A program made the position numbers and the translations under genes. A stretch of DNA of 64,000 nucleotides. Source: Exiguobacterium artemiae 255-15. Lineage in GTDB: Bacteria > Bacillota > Bacilli > Exiguobacteriales > Exiguobacteriaceae. The notes beneath the pieces were generated by a model. That model had not been told where the DNA came from. It was given only the letters and a program-made list of their open reading frames with translations, and ran no database searches. Where the stretch lies: contig NC_010556.1 of the NCBI RefSeq assembly GCF_000019905.1, forward strand, positions 1,824,001 through 1,888,000, written 5' to 3'. Below, piece by piece: positions 55,423 to 63,168 of this stretch (the stretch's first letter is position 1; each line of letters opens with the position of its first letter).

Positions 55423-57348
55423 TTATTCTTGTGATTTTGCCTGATTGTACGTAATCGTCTTCGCCCGGTAAACTTCGTCATCTTTATAGATGGTGATCTT
55501 ACCTTCTTCTCCCGGATCAATCGTTAACGGAACATCAAACGTTTCGTCCTGATCGATCGATTCTTCGATGACCGTCCGTTTCCCTTTGGCATCTTCCGTC
55601 TCAATCCGGACGAGTTGACGTGGAGCGGGCTCGTCTTCTTCACTGACGCCATCATATACGACTTTTTCAGGGAACGTCGCTGTGACGGTTTTTTCTTCCT
55701 CTCCCCGTGAAATAAAGACCGTGACGGAATCATTCGGCTCGACTTGCGCACCGGCTTGCGGATATTGACGAATGACTTGATCAAGAGCGACGTCGCTCGA
55801 AAACTCTTGCTCAAAAGTGCCGTCGAGTCCCATCTCATCGAGGTAGGCTTTCGCTTCTGTACTCGATAAGTCCGTCAAGTCTTTCAGGACAAACGCCGGC
55901 GATCCATTTGAGACCGTGATGGTGATCATCTGTTCCTTCGCAATGACTTCCGTTCCTGCTGAAATCGACTGTCGGATGACGTTCCCGCGTTTGATGTCTT
56001 CGGATTCTTCCCGTTCAACGTCGACTTTTTCAAACCCGCTGTCCTTCAAGATGGCGATTGCTTTTTTCTCTGTCTCATCCGAAACATCCGGTACTTCGAC
56101 CGGATCACTGCCAGTCGAGACAATCAAATCCACCGTCGATCCTTTTTTGACGGTCGCTTGTTCGCGAGGAGACTGACTGATGACGGCCCCTTCTTCGACC
56201 GTATCACTTGAGCGTTCAGTCGATTCCACAATGAACCCCATTTTTTCAAGCTTCGTTTCCGCCTCGTCGGCGTCCTTGCCTGTTACATCCGGAACGACGA
56301 CAGTTGGGTCTGGCCACATGGCAAAAGTCGTGGCAGCTCCACCGATTAGGACTACCAATAATAAAATGATCCACCATGCGCGTTTCTTTTTTTTCTCGGG
56401 TTTAGGCAGAACGGTCGCGACATTCGGAACCGGTGCGGTTTGTTCGAGTTCTTCTGATGGCAACGATACGGGACTGAGCACCATCGTTTTTTCCATCAGA
56501 TCGTCACCGCGAATTCCTTCGTTCGCCCGTTCGGCTGACATCGCCGTCACCATATCTTCTTTAAAGGCAGCGACCGTTTGTTGCCGGTCGTGCGGTGCTT
56601 TAGAGAGCGCCTGCATGATGCAATTTTCTAAAGCTTGCGGTACGGCCGGATTCAATGCGGTCGGACGGCGGGCGGTATCTTGCAGATGCTTCAGGGCAAC
56701 CGCCACCGGTGAATCGCCTTCAAACGGAACCTGTCCCGTCACGAGTTCATATAACACTGCTCCAAGTGAATAGATATCTGATTTTTCATCCGCAAATTTC
56801 CCTTTTGCCTGTTCCGGCGAAAAATAATGAACGGACCCAAGTACTGACATCGTATGGGTAAGGGTCGCATTCGACATCGCGACCGCAATTCCGAAATCTG
56901 TCACCTTGACGGTTCCATCCTCACGAATCAACATATTTTGAGGTTTGATATCCCGGTGGATGATCCGGTGGGCATGGGCATGATCGATCGCATCACAAAT
57001 TTGACTGATGATGTCAATCGCTTTTGTGACGGGCAGTGCCCGCCCTTCACAATACGTTTTCAGTGTCATACCATCGATATATTCCATCACGATATAATAA
57101 ATCGCTTCTTCTTCTCCTACATCATAGACCGCGACGATGTTGGGATGATTTAAACTCGTCGCAGCATGGGCCTCTCGTTCAAACCGGCGGATGAATTGTT
57201 CATCATGCGAAAACTCGGTACGTAAAATTTTGATTGCGACAGTTCGATTCAAGATTTCATCATATGCCTGATAAACGTTTGCCATTCCGCCATTTCCAAC
57301 TAACCGTTCTATGCGGTAGCGGTCGTTCAATCGATCTCCGTAACGCAT
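55423..57348 (-). CDS. prkC: Serine/threonine protein kinase PrkC (PASTA type)
   Basis: Membrane kinase that senses cell-wall fragments. The 641 residues contain a kinase domain with VGNGGMANVY (P-loop), Lys40 in VAIK, HRDIKPQN (Asp133), DFG and an activation loop rich in Thr/Ser (NATLTHTMS). A basic juxtamembrane patch and a single membrane helix (about 330 to 352) lead to three extracellular PASTA repeats (about 357 to 561) and a C-terminal beta-like region. It partners with the phosphatase gene directly before it. Confidence 0.97.
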   Translation of the reverse strand: MRYGDRLNDRYRIERLVGNGGMANVYQAYDEILNRTVAIKILRTEFSHDEQFIRRFEREAHAATSLNHPNIVAVYDVGEEEAIYYIVMEYIDGMTLKTYCEGRALPVTKAIDIISQICDAIDHAHAHRIIHRDIKPQNMLIREDGTVKVTDFGIAVAMSNATLTHTMSVLGSVHYFSPEQAKGKFADEKSDIYSLGAVLYELVTGQVPFEGDSPVAVALKHLQDTARRPTALNPAVPQALENCIMQALSKAPHDRQQTVAAFKEDMVTAMSAERANEGIRGDDLMEKTMVLSPVSLPSEELEQTAPVPNVATVLPKPEKKKKRAWWIILLLVVLIGGAATTFAMWPDPTVVVPDVTGKDADEAETKLEKMGFIVESTERSSDTVEEGAVISQSPREQATVKKGSTVDLIVSTGSDPVEVPDVSDETEKKAIAILKDSGFEKVDVEREESEDIKRGNVIRQSISAGTEVIAKEQMITITVSNGSPAFVLKDLTDLSSTEAKAYLDEMGLDGTFEQEFSSDVALDQVIRQYPQAGAQVEPNDSVTVFISRGEEEKTVTATFPEKVVYDGVSEEDEPAPRQLVRIETEDAKGKRTVIEESIDQDETFDVPLTIDPGEEGKITIYKDDEVYRAKTITYNQAKSQE

Positions 57349-57350
57349 AT

Positions 57351-58085
57351 TCAGATCCTCTCTCTTTCTTTAAAACGGATTGCAGCAAGCGTGATATTGT
57401 CTGCGCCTCCCCGGTCATTTGCCTCTGATACGAGACGTTCGACAATCGTATCGAGCGGTGCATCTTCTTGAAGCAACCGCTCGATGACTTCATGGGGAAC
57501 TTCATCCGACAAACCGTCGCTGCACACTAACACGATATCATAGTCCGGTGCATCCCGAACTTGAATGTCGACATCAACGGATTCGTTCGAACCGACGGAT
57601 CGTGTAATGACATTACGACGGGGATGATTTTCAAGCTCTGCTTCCGATAATTCCCCCAACTGTTTAAGCATGTTGACATAGGAATGATCATCCGTCAGTT
57701 GTTTCAGGTGTCCTGCTTCCAGTGCATACACGCGGCTGTCGCCAACGTGACCAATCACCAGTAAATCATCCGACCAACAGACGCAGGCCATCGTCGTGCC
57801 GACAATCGATAAATTTTCGACTTGAGAAAAACGTAGAATCTGCGTATTGGCTTCTTTCACTAACCGCTCGATCCAGGAAGATAACTCCATCGGTCGGCTT
57901 GGCATGTCTGCGTATGCTTCGGCAAAAGTCTGTTTGACGATGGCACTCGCCGTTTCACCGGCCGCATGCCCTCCCATGCCGTCAGCGACGACGGCCAATC
58001 CTTGTGTGGCATCGCCTACCAATAAAACCGTATCCTCATTTTTTGAACGGACCTTTCCAGTCGTCGTCAAATAAGCTAACTCCAT
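57351..58085 (-). CDS. prpC: PP2C-family protein phosphatase PrpC (Stp)
   Basis: Manganese-dependent phosphatase that reverses PrkC phosphorylation. The 244 residues show the family motifs GKVRSKNEDT, AVVADGMGGHAAGE, GHVGDSRVYAL, VCSDGLSD and GGADNITL, with all metal-binding Asp present. GAGGAGG precedes the start. It ends two bases before the prkC start, so the pair is cotranscribed. Confidence 0.97.
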   Translation of the reverse strand: MELAYLTTTGKVRSKNEDTVLLVGDATQGLAVVADGMGGHAAGETASAIVKQTFAEAYADMPSRPMELSSWIERLVKEANTQILRFSQVENLSIVGTTMACVCWSDDLLVIGHVGDSRVYALEAGHLKQLTDDHSYVNMLKQLGELSEAELENHPRRNVITRSVGSNESVDVDIQVRDAPDYDIVLVCSDGLSDEVPHEVIERLLQEDAPLDTIVERLVSEANDRGGADNITLAAIRFKERERI

Positions 58086-58109: not shown

Positions 58110-59450
58110 TTATCCCATTGTTTCATTCATTTTTTTGAATGCAGCGATATAAAAACCATCTGTGCCAAGCGATGTAGGGAGTAATTTCAATTCAGCCCGT
58201 TCACCAATCAATGATTGAACCGCTTCCGGCATCCGTGTTTTGAACGTCTCGTCAAAAACAAATCCTTGGCTGAGGATGAATTCCGTTTGCTGTTCATTTT
58301 CGAGCGGATCCATCGTACAAGTCGAATAGACGAAGGTTCCGTCCGGTTTGACGAGCGGAAGAACCGCTTCAAGGATTTGCCGTTGAATGACCGGCAATTG
58401 CGTTAAATCTTCGGGACGTTTCGTCCACTTGATATCGGGTTTCCGGCGAATGACACCAAGTCCGGAACATGGTGCATCGACCAATATCCGATCAAATGAT
58501 GCCGTCTCAAAACGTGTGCCTGCCTGACGGGCATCCAGTGCCTCCGCCTGCACATTGTGCAGGCCAAGACGAGTTGCCTGCTTTTCTAATAATTTTACTT
58601 TATGTGGATGAAGATCCAATGCGACTAACGATCCCGTCGCCAAACCTTCCGCGATATGCATCGCTTTTCCGCCCGGTGCCGCGCAACTGTCCAAGACATG
58701 ATCCGTCGGTTGTGCACCTAAAGCGGCAGCGACCAACATCGAACTTTCATCTTGGAGCGACAAATAACCGCGTTCCAACAAATCCGTCTGTTGCACGCTG
58801 CCACTGACGATTTCAAGTCCGTCTGGTGCCGCATGAGCCGGTTTTGCAATGACTCCTTGTTCTTCCAGCAATACAATCGCTTCTTGTTGGTCTGTCCGGG
58901 TCCGATTAACACGGACGGTGACGGGTGCCGGTTCATTATTCAGTCGGCACATCTTCCATGTCTCTTCTTCTCCAAACAGTTCCAGCCATCGCTTGACCAG
59001 CCAGACCGGATGACTCGTTTCGATGCTGATCCGGTCAACCGTCGAAGGAATCGCTGAGAAATCCGGTTTTCCAGTCCGAAGCACGTTCCGCAGCACACCG
59101 TTGACGACCTTGGCGATGTGCGGTTTCCCGCGTGTCTTGGCAATCTCGACTGCTTCGTTGATGACCGCATGATCCGGAATCCGGTCGAGATAAAACAGTT
59201 GGTAAACACTCATCCGTAATAACGGACGCATGAAAGGGTCCAACTTTTTTTGTTTCGTTAAGAAAGGTTCCAAAATATAGTCCAGTGTCAGTTCACGACT
59301 GAGTGTACCGTAAACCAGTTCTGTATATAAACCGACATCTGCTTTTGAGATAGCACGTTTTTCAAGCATCTGGTGGACGGAAATTGTGGAAAAAGCGCCG
59401 CCCTGGCCGATTTTTAATAAAGTTGTGACTGCTGCATCTCTGACATTCAT
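58110..59450 (-). CDS. rsmB: 16S rRNA (cytosine-967-C5)-methyltransferase RsmB
   Basis: SAM-dependent methyltransferase. The 446 residues have an N-terminal NusB-like RNA-binding domain (about 1 to 140). A Rossmann domain follows with DSCAAPGGKAMHIAE (SAM), DAPCSGLGVIRRKPDIKW (first catalytic Cys; ends DAPCS and DIKW) and YSTCTMDPLENEQ (second Cys, catalytic). Its ATG overlaps the def-fmt stop (ATGA). Confidence 0.97.
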   Translation of the reverse strand: MNVRDAAVTTLLKIGQGGAFSTISVHQMLEKRAISKADVGLYTELVYGTLSRELTLDYILEPFLTKQKKLDPFMRPLLRMSVYQLFYLDRIPDHAVINEAVEIAKTRGKPHIAKVVNGVLRNVLRTGKPDFSAIPSTVDRISIETSHPVWLVKRWLELFGEEETWKMCRLNNEPAPVTVRVNRTRTDQQEAIVLLEEQGVIAKPAHAAPDGLEIVSGSVQQTDLLERGYLSLQDESSMLVAAALGAQPTDHVLDSCAAPGGKAMHIAEGLATGSLVALDLHPHKVKLLEKQATRLGLHNVQAEALDARQAGTRFETASFDRILVDAPCSGLGVIRRKPDIKWTKRPEDLTQLPVIQRQILEAVLPLVKPDGTFVYSTCTMDPLENEQQTEFILSQGFVFDETFKTRMPEAVQSLIGERAELKLLPTSLGTDGFYIAAFKKMNETMG

Positions 59451-60832
59451 GCTTGTTCGCCTACTTTCTGTCCAATCGTCAGTGTCTGTCCGACACCTCG
59501 CATGAACGTTGCACCGTCCATCCGTTTTTTACCGGCCGGCTGTACGTCGACTAACTTCAAGGCTGTGTCTGAACCGGTTGCAACGACAGGTCCATCCGCT
59601 TCCAAGGCAATGATTTCGCCTGCGCTTCCGCGACCCGGCACTTTTTCAGCAAAGTATACTTTCAGACGATCTGAACCGAGCAGCGTATAGGCGCTCGGGA
59701 ATGGATTCATGCCGCGGATTTGATTATATAATTCTTCTCCGGAACGTGAAAAATCGAGTCGTTCCCGTTCCCGGCTGATATTCGGAGAAAACGTAACATC
59801 TTCTTCCCGTTGTGCTTCAGGTGTCGACGTGCCTGCAATCAACTGCGGTAATGTTTCGATTAATAATTTGGCACCGGCAGCGCTGAGCTTGTCAAACATC
59901 GTTCCGACCGTGTCACGCTCTTCAATCGGTACGATGATTTTTGATAACATATCTCCAGCATCCAGCTTGTCGACCATATACATGATCGTGACCCCTGTTT
60001 CTGTTTCCCCGTCGATGATCGCCTGGTGAATCGGGGCTCCGCCGCGATACTTCGGCAATAAGGACGCGTGGACATTAATCGCGCCGTATTGTGGGGCTTC
60101 GAGCACTGCCATCGGAACGATTTGTCCGTAAGCAGCCGTAATGATCAGGTCCGGTTTCAAGTCGAGCAAGCCTTGATAGTCTTCCCGGATTTTAGCGGGT
60201 TGTAAGACAGGAATATCGTGAGCTAATGCCACTTCTTTCACTGGTGTCGGTTTGATTTCACGTTTGCGTCCGACAGGTTTGTCCGGCTGGGAAACGACAC
60301 CGACGACGTTATATCCGGCGTCAATCACTTCCCGGAGTGTATTTGCAGCAAACTCTGGTGTTCCCATGAAAACGACACGAGGCGTTGCTTCCGTCTCCAC
60401 TAATTTGTCCGTGAACAACACACCGTCCAAATGATCCATTTCGTGCTGGATGGCCCGTGCAAAAAAGCCGTTCGCCTTAATTTTGACACTTCGTCCAAGA
60501 CGGTCCTGTGATTTGACGACAATCTGTTCAAAGCGTTCCACGGGTCCGAAAATCCCCGGCATGCTCAAACAGCCTTCGTCGTCGATTTCCGATCCGGTTG
60601 CTTCGATGATTTCCGGATTAATCAGCTCGATTGGTCCCGTCTCATCATCCGTATGGACGACAGCGACACGAATCGGTTGGTTGATTTGTGGCGCTGCTAA
60701 TCCGACGCCGTCATATTCATACATCGTATCGAACATCCGATCAATCATTTTTCCTAATTTCTTATCAAACTTCGTTACACGTTGGCATTTTTGACGCAAC
60801 ACTTCATTTGGTACTTCCACAACTTTGTACAT
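59447..60832 (-). CDS. Bifunctional fusion: peptide deformylase - methionyl-tRNA formyltransferase
   Basis: A single 461-codon frame encodes both enzymes of the formyl cycle. Residues 1 to about 145 are a type 1 peptide deformylase with all motifs: GVGLAAPQ (42-49), EGCLS (86-90, Cys88) and HEMDH (130-134, His-Glu-His metal site). From about residue 151 a complete Fmt begins VVFMGTPEF. It contains NVHASLLPKYRGGAP (Asn253, His255), LDAGDML (Asp291) and a C-terminal OB-like tRNA-binding domain. The junction DKLVETEATPR replaces the usual deformylase tail and Fmt start, with no stop codon and no internal ribosome site. ATG at 60832 follows GAGGTGG. Bacillus has two separate genes, def and fmt, here. 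Confidence 0.93.
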   Translation of the reverse strand: MYKVVEVPNEVLRQKCQRVTKFDKKLGKMIDRMFDTMYEYDGVGLAAPQINQPIRVAVVHTDDETGPIELINPEIIEATGSEIDDEGCLSMPGIFGPVERFEQIVVKSQDRLGRSVKIKANGFFARAIQHEMDHLDGVLFTDKLVETEATPRVVFMGTPEFAANTLREVIDAGYNVVGVVSQPDKPVGRKREIKPTPVKEVALAHDIPVLQPAKIREDYQGLLDLKPDLIITAAYGQIVPMAVLEAPQYGAINVHASLLPKYRGGAPIHQAIIDGETETGVTIMYMVDKLDAGDMLSKIIVPIEERDTVGTMFDKLSAAGAKLLIETLPQLIAGTSTPEAQREEDVTFSPNISRERERLDFSRSGEELYNQIRGMNPFPSAYTLLGSDRLKVYFAEKVPGRGSAGEIIALEADGPVVATGSDTALKLVDVQPAGKKRMDGATFMRGVGQTLTIGQKVGEQA

Positions 60833-60843
60833 AGTTTGCCACC

Positions 60844-63168
60844 TCACATGAATACAAATGGATTCAAATCCACTGTTACTTGGACTTTTTGTTTGATGCG
60901 TAATGCAAGCATCGCACGGAGTGCCTCCCGCACTTCTTCTTGACCTTTATGTTTTAGAATCACCTGGTATCGGTACATGTTTTTTAGCCGTGCCAGCGGT
61001 GCTTCAAGCGGACCGTTGACAATTAAATCGTCTGATTCCAGATGCCGGAGTTCTCCTGCAATCGCTTCTGCTTCCGCTTGTGCTTCGAGCGGATGAGCTG
61101 CTGAAATCGTCACTAGTCCTAAAAACCAGAACGGAGGGTGTCCGCCTAACTTACGTAACTGCATTTCTCGCTGATAAAACGCTTCATAATCATGACGTTT
61201 CGCCGTCTGGATGACGTAATGATCCGGATTATAAGTCTGAATAATCGATTGTCCGGCAAGCGCTCCCCGGCCGGCACGACCTGAAACTTGCGTAATCAGT
61301 TGAAACGTTCGTTCACTCGCCCGGAAATCAGGAATCCCGAGTGTTGCATCCGCCGCAATGACACCGACCAGTGTCACGTTCGGAAAATCAAGCCCTTTGG
61401 CAATCATTTGGGTTCCGAGCAGGATGTTTCCTTCACCGCGCTCAAACGCATTCAATAATTTTTCATGCGCGCCTTTGCGTGACGTCGTATCTTGATCCAT
61501 GCGGATGATTTTGGCTTCCGGAATCAAATGGGCCAGTTCTTCTTCGATTTTTTGCGTCCCGGTACCGAACTGCCGAATTTTTTTCGATTCACAGGACGGA
61601 CAGGTTTTCGGCATGGCTGCTTCAAATCCACAATAATGACATTTCAGACAATCCTGGTGTTGATGATAGGTCAGATTGACGGCGCAATGTGGGCATTGAA
61701 GCGTTTCACCACAATCCCGACACAGGACAAACGTCGTGTATCCCCGTCGATTGAGGAGCAGGACCGTCTGTTCGCCCCGTTCGATGCGTTGTTTGATTCC
61801 TTCGACAAGAGGCAGGCTGAACGGTGTTCGATTGCTGCGTTCCAGTTCTTTTCGCATATCGATGATCTCGACCGGTGGAAGTTCGCCTCCGAATCGTTCT
61901 TTTAGAGGGAGGTAACGATAGACCCCTTTCTGAGAACGTGCATACGTTTCTAGAATCGGCGTCGCACTTCCAAGGACGACGGGACATTTGTGATATGCCG
62001 CTCGCCACGTGGCCACATCCCGGGTATGATACCGCGGATTTTCTTCCTGTTTATACGTCGTTTCATGTTCTTCATCCAAAATGATGACACCGATATTCGT
62101 CAACGGTGCAAAAATCGCAGAACGTGCCCCGACCACGACATCAACTTCTCCGTGGGAAATTTTCCGCCATTCATCGTATTTTTCACCTAACGACAGACCG
62201 CTGTGCAGCACAGCCACCCGATCCCCGAACCGGCGTTTAAAACGTTTGACCATCATCGGCGTCAAACTGATTTCCGGTACGAGCAAAATCGCTTGGCGCC
62301 CCCGCTGAAGCATTGTATGAATCGATTCCAAATAGACTTCCGTTTTCCCGCTGCCGGTCACCCCGTGGAGTAAAAACGTACTCGTCTCTTCCGATGCCGT
62401 GATCGCATCGACCGCATCCTGCTGATGTGTCGTCAGGGTGGACGGAACAAAGATATCTTGGACGAGATGTTCGTACGGATTGCGATTTACATCAATTGTC
62501 TCGACCGTAATGACACCTTTTTTCTCTAAACTGTTAAGGATGCTGACAGTCAAATCCAGTTCATGCATCACTTCACTCCATAACACTTCCGGACGTGCCA
62601 TCAGATACTCACGGAGCAGAATCTGTTTTGTCGCTTGTTTCGATAATTCAATCGTCGAATCGAGCAGACGAATCCGCTTGTCGGTTTTGGACGTCTTCTT
62701 TTCTTTGACGATCGGTTGCAGTCGGATATCCCCATTTTGGGCAGCCACTAATATCTGTTGTTGGACCTCACTCGGAAACTGGCTGATTTTCTTCTGGTTC
62801 CAGTGAATCAGCCGCGGATTTTCCGCCAAAATCAGTTTATCATAACTGACTTTCAAAGCAGCGGGCAACATCGCAAGTAGTGCCGTTGCCTGATAGCAAA
62901 GGGTCGTCTCGGACAGGTAACTCGATAGTTGGAGCAATTCTTCCGTGTACGTCGGTGTCTCATCGAGAACGCGTACAATCGGTTTGATGCGCGCGAGATC
63001 CGTCTCGTCCTTCACGGCTACGACGATTCCGAGCAACGCCCGCGGACCGAACGGCACTTCGACACGCATACCGGGAACAACGAGATCACGCCATAAATCC
63101 GGTACTTCATAATCAAATGGCCGGTCGACCGTCGCCGCCGCGACATCGACGATGACTTCGGCAATCAT
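60844..63168 (-). CDS. priA: Primosomal protein PriA (replication restart helicase)
   Basis: Recognises stalled forks and reloads the replisome. The 774 residues have an N-terminal 3'-DNA-binding domain (VDVAAATVDRPFDYEVP; ends VDVAA and YEVP) and a winged helix. Helicase motifs are GVTGSGKTEVYL (I) and DEEHETTYKQ (II), and the cysteine-rich zinc region runs from CRDCGETLQCPHC to CPSCESKK. Motif VI is QVSGRAGRG. Its ATG overlaps the coaBC stop (ATGA). Confidence 0.97.
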   Translation of the reverse strand: MIAEVIVDVAAATVDRPFDYEVPDLWRDLVVPGMRVEVPFGPRALLGIVVAVKDETDLARIKPIVRVLDETPTYTEELLQLSSYLSETTLCYQATALLAMLPAALKVSYDKLILAENPRLIHWNQKKISQFPSEVQQQILVAAQNGDIRLQPIVKEKKTSKTDKRIRLLDSTIELSKQATKQILLREYLMARPEVLWSEVMHELDLTVSILNSLEKKGVITVETIDVNRNPYEHLVQDIFVPSTLTTHQQDAVDAITASEETSTFLLHGVTGSGKTEVYLESIHTMLQRGRQAILLVPEISLTPMMVKRFKRRFGDRVAVLHSGLSLGEKYDEWRKISHGEVDVVVGARSAIFAPLTNIGVIILDEEHETTYKQEENPRYHTRDVATWRAAYHKCPVVLGSATPILETYARSQKGVYRYLPLKERFGGELPPVEIIDMRKELERSNRTPFSLPLVEGIKQRIERGEQTVLLLNRRGYTTFVLCRDCGETLQCPHCAVNLTYHQHQDCLKCHYCGFEAAMPKTCPSCESKKIRQFGTGTQKIEEELAHLIPEAKIIRMDQDTTSRKGAHEKLLNAFERGEGNILLGTQMIAKGLDFPNVTLVGVIAADATLGIPDFRASERTFQLITQVSGRAGRGALAGQSIIQTYNPDHYVIQTAKRHDYEAFYQREMQLRKLGGHPPFWFLGLVTISAAHPLEAQAEAEAIAGELRHLESDDLIVNGPLEAPLARLKNMYRYQVILKHKGQEEVREALRAMLALRIKQKVQVTVDLNPFVFM

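Follow-up and report, generated by a model that had tools for sequence, protein, structure and literature searches.

The 64,000-nucleotide stretch of Exiguobacterium artemiae 255-15 DNA analysed here (the window) carries a gene in which peptide deformylase (Def) and methionyl-tRNA formyltransferase (Fmt) are joined in a single reading frame. We consider this gene, with a probability of about 0.93, to encode a genuine bifunctional housekeeping enzyme that arose by in-frame fusion of def and fmt; its activity is predicted. The two enzymes are classical partners, one opening and the other closing the formyl cycle, and deformylase is also a target for antibiotics. A fusion of this kind has been described before in Exiguobacterium; what is new is that the fusion recurs, and is common, in a second class of Bacillota. 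Def-Fmt fusion is thus very probably a recurrent and stable solution in this phylum, with at least two origins, the majority state in one class, and often the only deformylase locus.

The fused gene and its neighbours

The def-fmt gene occupies 59447..60832 on the minus strand as one open frame of 461 amino acids followed by a stop codon. The open frame itself spans 59447-60847, and coding was assigned from the ATG at 60832, which is preceded by AGGTGG, as are the starts of the four family genes inspected upstream. The ATG lies 12 bases past the end of priA (60844..63168, minus strand, Pfam), which adjoins the fusion on its upstream side. On the downstream side it is adjoined by an rsmB-type gene with NusB and RsmB/F methyltransferase domains (58110..59450, minus strand, Pfam), the ATG of which shares 4 bases with the stop of the fusion. 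Farther downstream on the same strand, at 55423-58085, are a PP2C phosphatase identified by Pfam and, judged by its translation, a Ser/Thr kinase-like protein in which PASTA-like segments are repeated. A phosphatase followed by a kinase in this position is the usual Bacillus-type arrangement.

The deformylase domain makes up residues 1-148 (60389..60832, minus strand) and was recognized by Pfam PF01327 with an E value of 1.3e-49 (168.3 bits, cut-off 22.8) and by NCBIfam TIGR00079 (162.8 bits, cut-off 103.95). Its three motifs are GVGLAAPQ at residues 42-49 (60686..60709), EGCLS at residues 86-90 (60563..60577) and the metal motif HEMDH at residues 130-134 (60431..60445), all on the minus strand. 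They conform to the updated definitions of deformylase motifs, GxGxAAxQ, EGCLS and HExxHxxG, given in the available text of PMC12690207. In an alignment of 11 fused proteins, D41, G42, G44 and A46-Q49 of the first motif, the whole of EGCLS, and H130, E131, D133 and H134 of the metal motif were invariant in all 11. The formyltransferase part carries both of its domains, a catalytic domain at residues 152-328 (59849..60379, minus strand; PF00551, E 8.5e-41) and a C-terminal domain at residues 351-446 (59495..59782, minus strand; PF02911, E 3.8e-22). The NCBIfam fmt model TIGR00460 was matched with 328.8 bits against a cut-off of 201.5 over model positions 2-306 of 315. N253, H255 and D294 of the Fmt half, presumably its catalytic residues, are likewise present and invariant in 11/11 of the aligned fused proteins. 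Between the halves lies a linker of about 8 residues (144-151, VETEATPR less the final R; 60380..60403, minus strand). The earlier note on this DNA, which had described both enzymes as complete, in one frame and with all catalytic motifs, placed the gene and its linker correctly.

Conservation of the fusion in the order

The extent of the fusion in Exiguobacterium, a matter raised in the earlier note, proved to be the entire order: in all 38 genomes, which belong to two genera of one family, a single match free of stop codons covered query residues 1-458 or more, and direct translation gave proteins of 458-466 amino acids in each. The linker varies across the family in both sequence and length while the domains are constant. 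Values of dN/dS were between 0.010 and 0.076 for both halves in the 13 of 16 comparisons that had a finite dS, the other three being saturated; purifying selection acts strongly on Def and Fmt alike. The fused Fmt is the only match above the TIGR00460 cut-off in the window genome. The same search found exactly one Fmt above cut-off in each of the 40 genomes searched, 6 of which are Exiguobacteriaceae.

Structure, linker and lost tail

An AlphaFold model of the window protein together with 56 related sequences had a mean pLDDT of 96.1 and a pTM of 0.77, values which indicate that the relative placement of the two domains is not fixed by the model. In Foldseek searches the structure nearest to the Def half was the Bacillus cereus peptide deformylase 1ws0 (TM 0.94, rmsd 0.7), and that nearest to the Fmt half was 4iqf (TM 0.96 by target). 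No chain spanning both halves was found among the 50 Foldseek chains listed. The model has a short helix at residues 140-143, after which the chain is coil up to the first Fmt strand at residue 152.

The deformylase of Escherichia coli binds ribosomal protein L22 through its C-terminal helix, according to the review and kinetic literature (available parts of PMC9099147 and PMC4378268). When the E. coli enzyme 1bs4 was aligned with the fusion, the alignment reached only residue 147 of 168, and neither this alignment nor the predicted model shows a counterpart of the ribosome-binding helix in the fusion. This counts against co-localisation at the ribosome by means of an E. coli-type anchor. The anchor is a feature of E. 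coli and not a defining one of the deformylase family. A loss of the usual deformylase tail, also claimed in the earlier note, was evident in Exiguobacterium, where only 11-18 residues separate the HLDG sequence from Fmt (38 genes), against 15-28 residues after HLDG in the separate deformylases of other Bacilli (26 genes). In the second class the gap from HLDG to Fmt is 17-79 residues (median 19, 47 genes), and the tail after HLDG in separate deformylases of other Bacillota has a median of 14 (84 genes). Since the gap in the second class is not shorter than these tails, loss of the tail is clear for Exiguobacterium only.

A second deformylase in Exiguobacterium

Two loci matching PF01327 and one Fmt were found in the window genome, and a second def gene, the presence of which the earlier note had proposed to check, was detected in all 38 genomes of the family. 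In the window genome it encodes a protein of 185 amino acids with the motifs HEYDH and EGCLS, and the structures nearest to it are the peptide deformylases 2 2okl and 1lqy and the PDF1 of Staphylococcus aureus. Judged by these similarities, it is a predicted deformylase of the Bacillus PDF2 type that adds to the fused Def. Because such a gene is present in every genome of the family, the fused Def half need not be essential in Exiguobacterium.

Separate genes in other Bacilli and a possible route to fusion

In Bacillus subtilis the gene order is priA-def-fmt-rsmB. The separate def and fmt genes of other Bacilli share with the window the priA and rsmB neighbours, the domain families and the catalytic motifs, but they are two genes, and the junction between them is longer and contains one stop codon or more. 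A survey of the class Bacilli gave 43 joined matches outside the family, every one with at least one stop. Translation was carried out for 26 loci outside the family, namely 21 of the 43 survey matches and five further loci, and all 26 were separate genes. Two Bacilli that had been candidates for independent fusions (G049 and G046) were discarded when translation revealed stops between the genes. In many Bacilli def and fmt share one frame and are separated by only one or a few stops. In the best-scoring relatives (G138 and G264), for example, the junction reads ...EELEG*MPMTNIVFMGTPDF, with 105 bases from HExDH to MGTP as compared with 78 in the window gene. Overall this distance was 69-90 bases in the fused genes of the family and 102-171 bases in the same-frame separate genes of Bacilli.

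These arrangements suggest a simple route. An ancestral priA-def-fmt-rsmB operon with adjacent def and fmt would have lost, in an ancestor of Exiguobacterium, the stop codon of def, the intergenic bases and the start of fmt, leaving the two genes fused in frame; a single in-frame deletion across the def stop and the fmt start would have been sufficient. The one product would consist of two ordinary domains held together by a flexible tether of a few residues. Its C-terminal Fmt would formylate initiator Met-tRNA, and its N-terminal Def would later deformylate nascent chains. Both activities would be made at a ratio of 1:1 with no need for channelling, which seems unlikely because the two substrates, the initiator tRNA and the nascent peptide, are different. 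The PDF2-type enzyme encoded elsewhere in the genome would serve as an additional deformylase. The same join was made at least once more, in another class of Bacillota.

Relation to known systems

The statement of the earlier note that no natural protein of this type had been described does not hold. PMC12690207 (Mol Biol Evol, Nov 2025), a screen of reference genomes, reports in its available text a fusion of def and fmt in four Exiguobacterium reference genomes, all of which carry a second PDF as well; the fusion of the window gene was therefore already known. Genus, domain order and second deformylase are the same, and no difference between the two descriptions was found in that text. The same source reports that a codon-optimised fusion gene of E. 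alkaliphilum enabled an E. coli delta def-fmt mutant to grow again, both activities being retained. Thermaerobacter is not mentioned in the available portion of PMC12690207, and no mention of the second fused lineage was found in the open-licence PubMed Central literature by queries that covered topics other than Symbiobacterium or Sulfobacillus with deformylase. ArnA is likewise a fused bifunctional enzyme having a formyltransferase domain of the same fold, N-terminal in ArnA. It differs in that it combines a sugar formyltransferase with a decarboxylase; the window protein is devoid of such a second domain and reached 153 bits with the ArnA model, the cut-off of which is 777.

Alternative explanations

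Because def and fmt lie in the same frame with one or a few stops between them in many Bacilli, a single base error in one genome could mimic a fusion. That two normal genes were merged by an error of sequencing, assembly or annotation is nevertheless so improbable as to be negligible, given the agreement of 38 independent genomes, the shortened junction in the fused genes and the published complementation, as reported in the available text of PMC12690207. A somewhat more serious alternative, still quite improbable, is that the fused protein is cleaved, or that an internal start yields Fmt as well, the working enzymes then being separate Def and Fmt proteins. In its favour, the linker of the window gene contains a GTG at residue 144, and GTG or TTG codons occur within the linker proper of 11 of the 38 family genes (the window gene included), anywhere from HLDG to the Fmt methionine in 25 of 38, and in the gap of 40 of the 47 fused genes of the second class. 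However, the GTG at the valine of residue 144 is not conserved, being found only in L001 and L007 of the family set, 27 of the 38 genes lack both of these codons in the linker proper, and conservation is also absent from the linker sequence as a whole. No in-frame ATG was found between the deformylase HLDG and Fmt in any of the 38 family genes, and 13 of them have no ATG, GTG or TTG whatever in this interval. Taken together, these two counts mean that a separate Fmt start is not conserved, in agreement with the earlier claim that Fmt had lost its own start; Fmt may still be initiated internally on occasion.

The presence of the second PDF in all family genomes, with its nearest structures among Bacillus-type PDF2 and S. 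aureus PDF1, bears on a different possibility, namely that the fused Def half is a non-catalytic remnant and that the PDF2-type enzyme carries out all deformylation in Exiguobacterium. In B. subtilis the main deformylase is of the PDF2 type (YkrB), which counts for this possibility as well. It is nonetheless very improbable, since the three catalytic motifs of the Def half are intact, its dN/dS is as low as that of the Fmt half or lower, and complementation of the E. coli mutant requires deformylase activity (PMC12690207, available text). A bifunctional enzyme with two working halves remains the preferred reading for the window gene.

Surveys of the phylum

All surveys were made within Bacillota, and a fusion was accepted only when direct translation showed it, as the frame lengths and stop counts listed by the searches were unreliable in both directions; some fused genomes, for example G700, G724 and G698, had been listed with a stop. 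When the window protein was used as query against 398 genomes of the phylum at an E value of 1e-100, 76 genomes matched, and only the window genome (G000) and G434 gave joined matches free of stops; further fused genomes that the sample contained (G317, G363, G401 and G487) escaped detection at this threshold. Five rows of this survey that contained stops (G412, G350, G313, G393 and G340) turned out on translation to be separate genes. Profile searches of a further 160 Bacillota genomes of the same sample matched 158 and gave 7 joined matches, all 7 of which were separate on translation. In a check of 35 loci, 34 were separate and one consisted of Fmt only. No fusion was seen among the matches listed for the 160 genomes, the rows other than those translated being judged by their listed values, with the reservation that a fusion with a long linker can be split into two rows. 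A scan for a short spacing from HExDH to MG returned at least 119 stretches, and the Def-Fmt fusions among the matches listed, as judged by translation and HMM, were L088, L121, L126 and L155, all from Exiguobacterium; the gap limit of this pattern narrowly misses the fusions of the second class. In L159 and L170 the frame was open through the spacing with no Fmt following, and these were not fusions.

A second fused lineage

A search of Bacillota for Def and Fmt in one protein, as the earlier note had suggested, thus revealed the fusion in a second class. G434 was the first genome outside the family with a joined match free of stops. In its order 7/7 genomes matched both domains in one frame, and complete Def and Fmt were confirmed by translation, with Pfam applied to six of the seven. 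We take the class to be that of Thermaerobacter, Symbiobacterium and Sulfobacillus, and among its presumed members Thermaerobacter marianensis is fused, Symbiobacterium thermophilum has separate genes and the genes of Sulfobacillus acidophilus are far apart. Of 81 genomes sampled from the class, 46 belonging to 22 families were fused, each checked by translation, and 25 were separate by translation; in the remaining 10 the genes were far apart or on different contigs, or there was a single match or none. The fused loci, from 47 genomes including the 46 of the sample, are L184, L204-L229, L232-L237, L242-L244, L246, L250-L255 and L257-L260.

A PF01327 search of these 47 genomes, many of which are incomplete metagenome assemblies, found no second deformylase locus in 39 and a second locus in 8. 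TIGR00460 was searched in 34 of the 47 and gave one match above the cut-off in all 34, three of them having an extra match below it. With 39 of 47 genomes having no other Def and 34 of 34 having one Fmt, the fusion is probably the sole Def and the sole Fmt in such genomes. The assembly of G363 is a single contig of 100% completeness; there, provided that the cell makes use of formylation at all, the fusion must act as Def and Fmt alike.

Number of origins

The identical domain order in the two fused groups could point to a single fusion event, spread by descent or by gene transfer, behind all Def-Fmt fusions. In a tree of 109 rows, however, Exiguobacterium was placed among the separate genes of Bacilli (branch 95*, and 99* with five separate Bacilli rows), and the fused genes of the second class grouped with unfused genes from that class. 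Constraining the 16 fused rows from the two groups to a single clade in a thinned set of 40 rows (quick tree), picked before the AU tests were made, was 159 log-likelihood units worse and gave a p-AU of 1.5e-45. A single clade for the fused rows of the second class was not rejected (p-AU 0.355), which agrees with one event within that class, although the 109-row tree contained 9 label changes. One event for all fusions is hence highly improbable, and rejection of the common clade means that the Def-Fmt fusion has had at least two origins.

A fused enzyme fixes the ratio of Def to Fmt. If the reading given here is true, then in bacteria that have only the fusion the whole formyl cycle is carried on one polypeptide, all deformylase inhibitors share a single target protein, and the levels of Def and Fmt cannot scale separately. 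Species with no second deformylase would offer a natural test of whether Def and Fmt must be regulated apart, and of whether a deformylase needs the E. coli-type C-terminal anchor for the ribosome. Two or more independent joins, maintained in many families, suggest either that expressing the two activities jointly is of selective advantage or, at the least, that it carries no cost.

Variation at the locus in the second class

Several loci of the second class depart from the common form. Three fused proteins (L206-L208), from genomes that we take to be of the Thermaerobacter type, contain a long Pro/Gly-rich insert in the C-terminal domain of Fmt that is absent from the Exiguobacterium protein. 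The fused deformylase of L218 (G755) has HEMEH instead of HExDH, and this Def half may be changing its role, given that G755 has a second deformylase locus. In L259 (G704) the PF01327 match is split into two pieces, within one open frame, beside the fused Fmt; from the appearance of the match, this deformylase half is apparently interrupted or misassembled. Finally, three separate deformylases of the class (L231, L261 and L262) possess very long Ala/Glu-rich C-terminal tails, the longest running for 93 residues past HLDG, as though the stretch from def to fmt in this class could extend or fuse freely.
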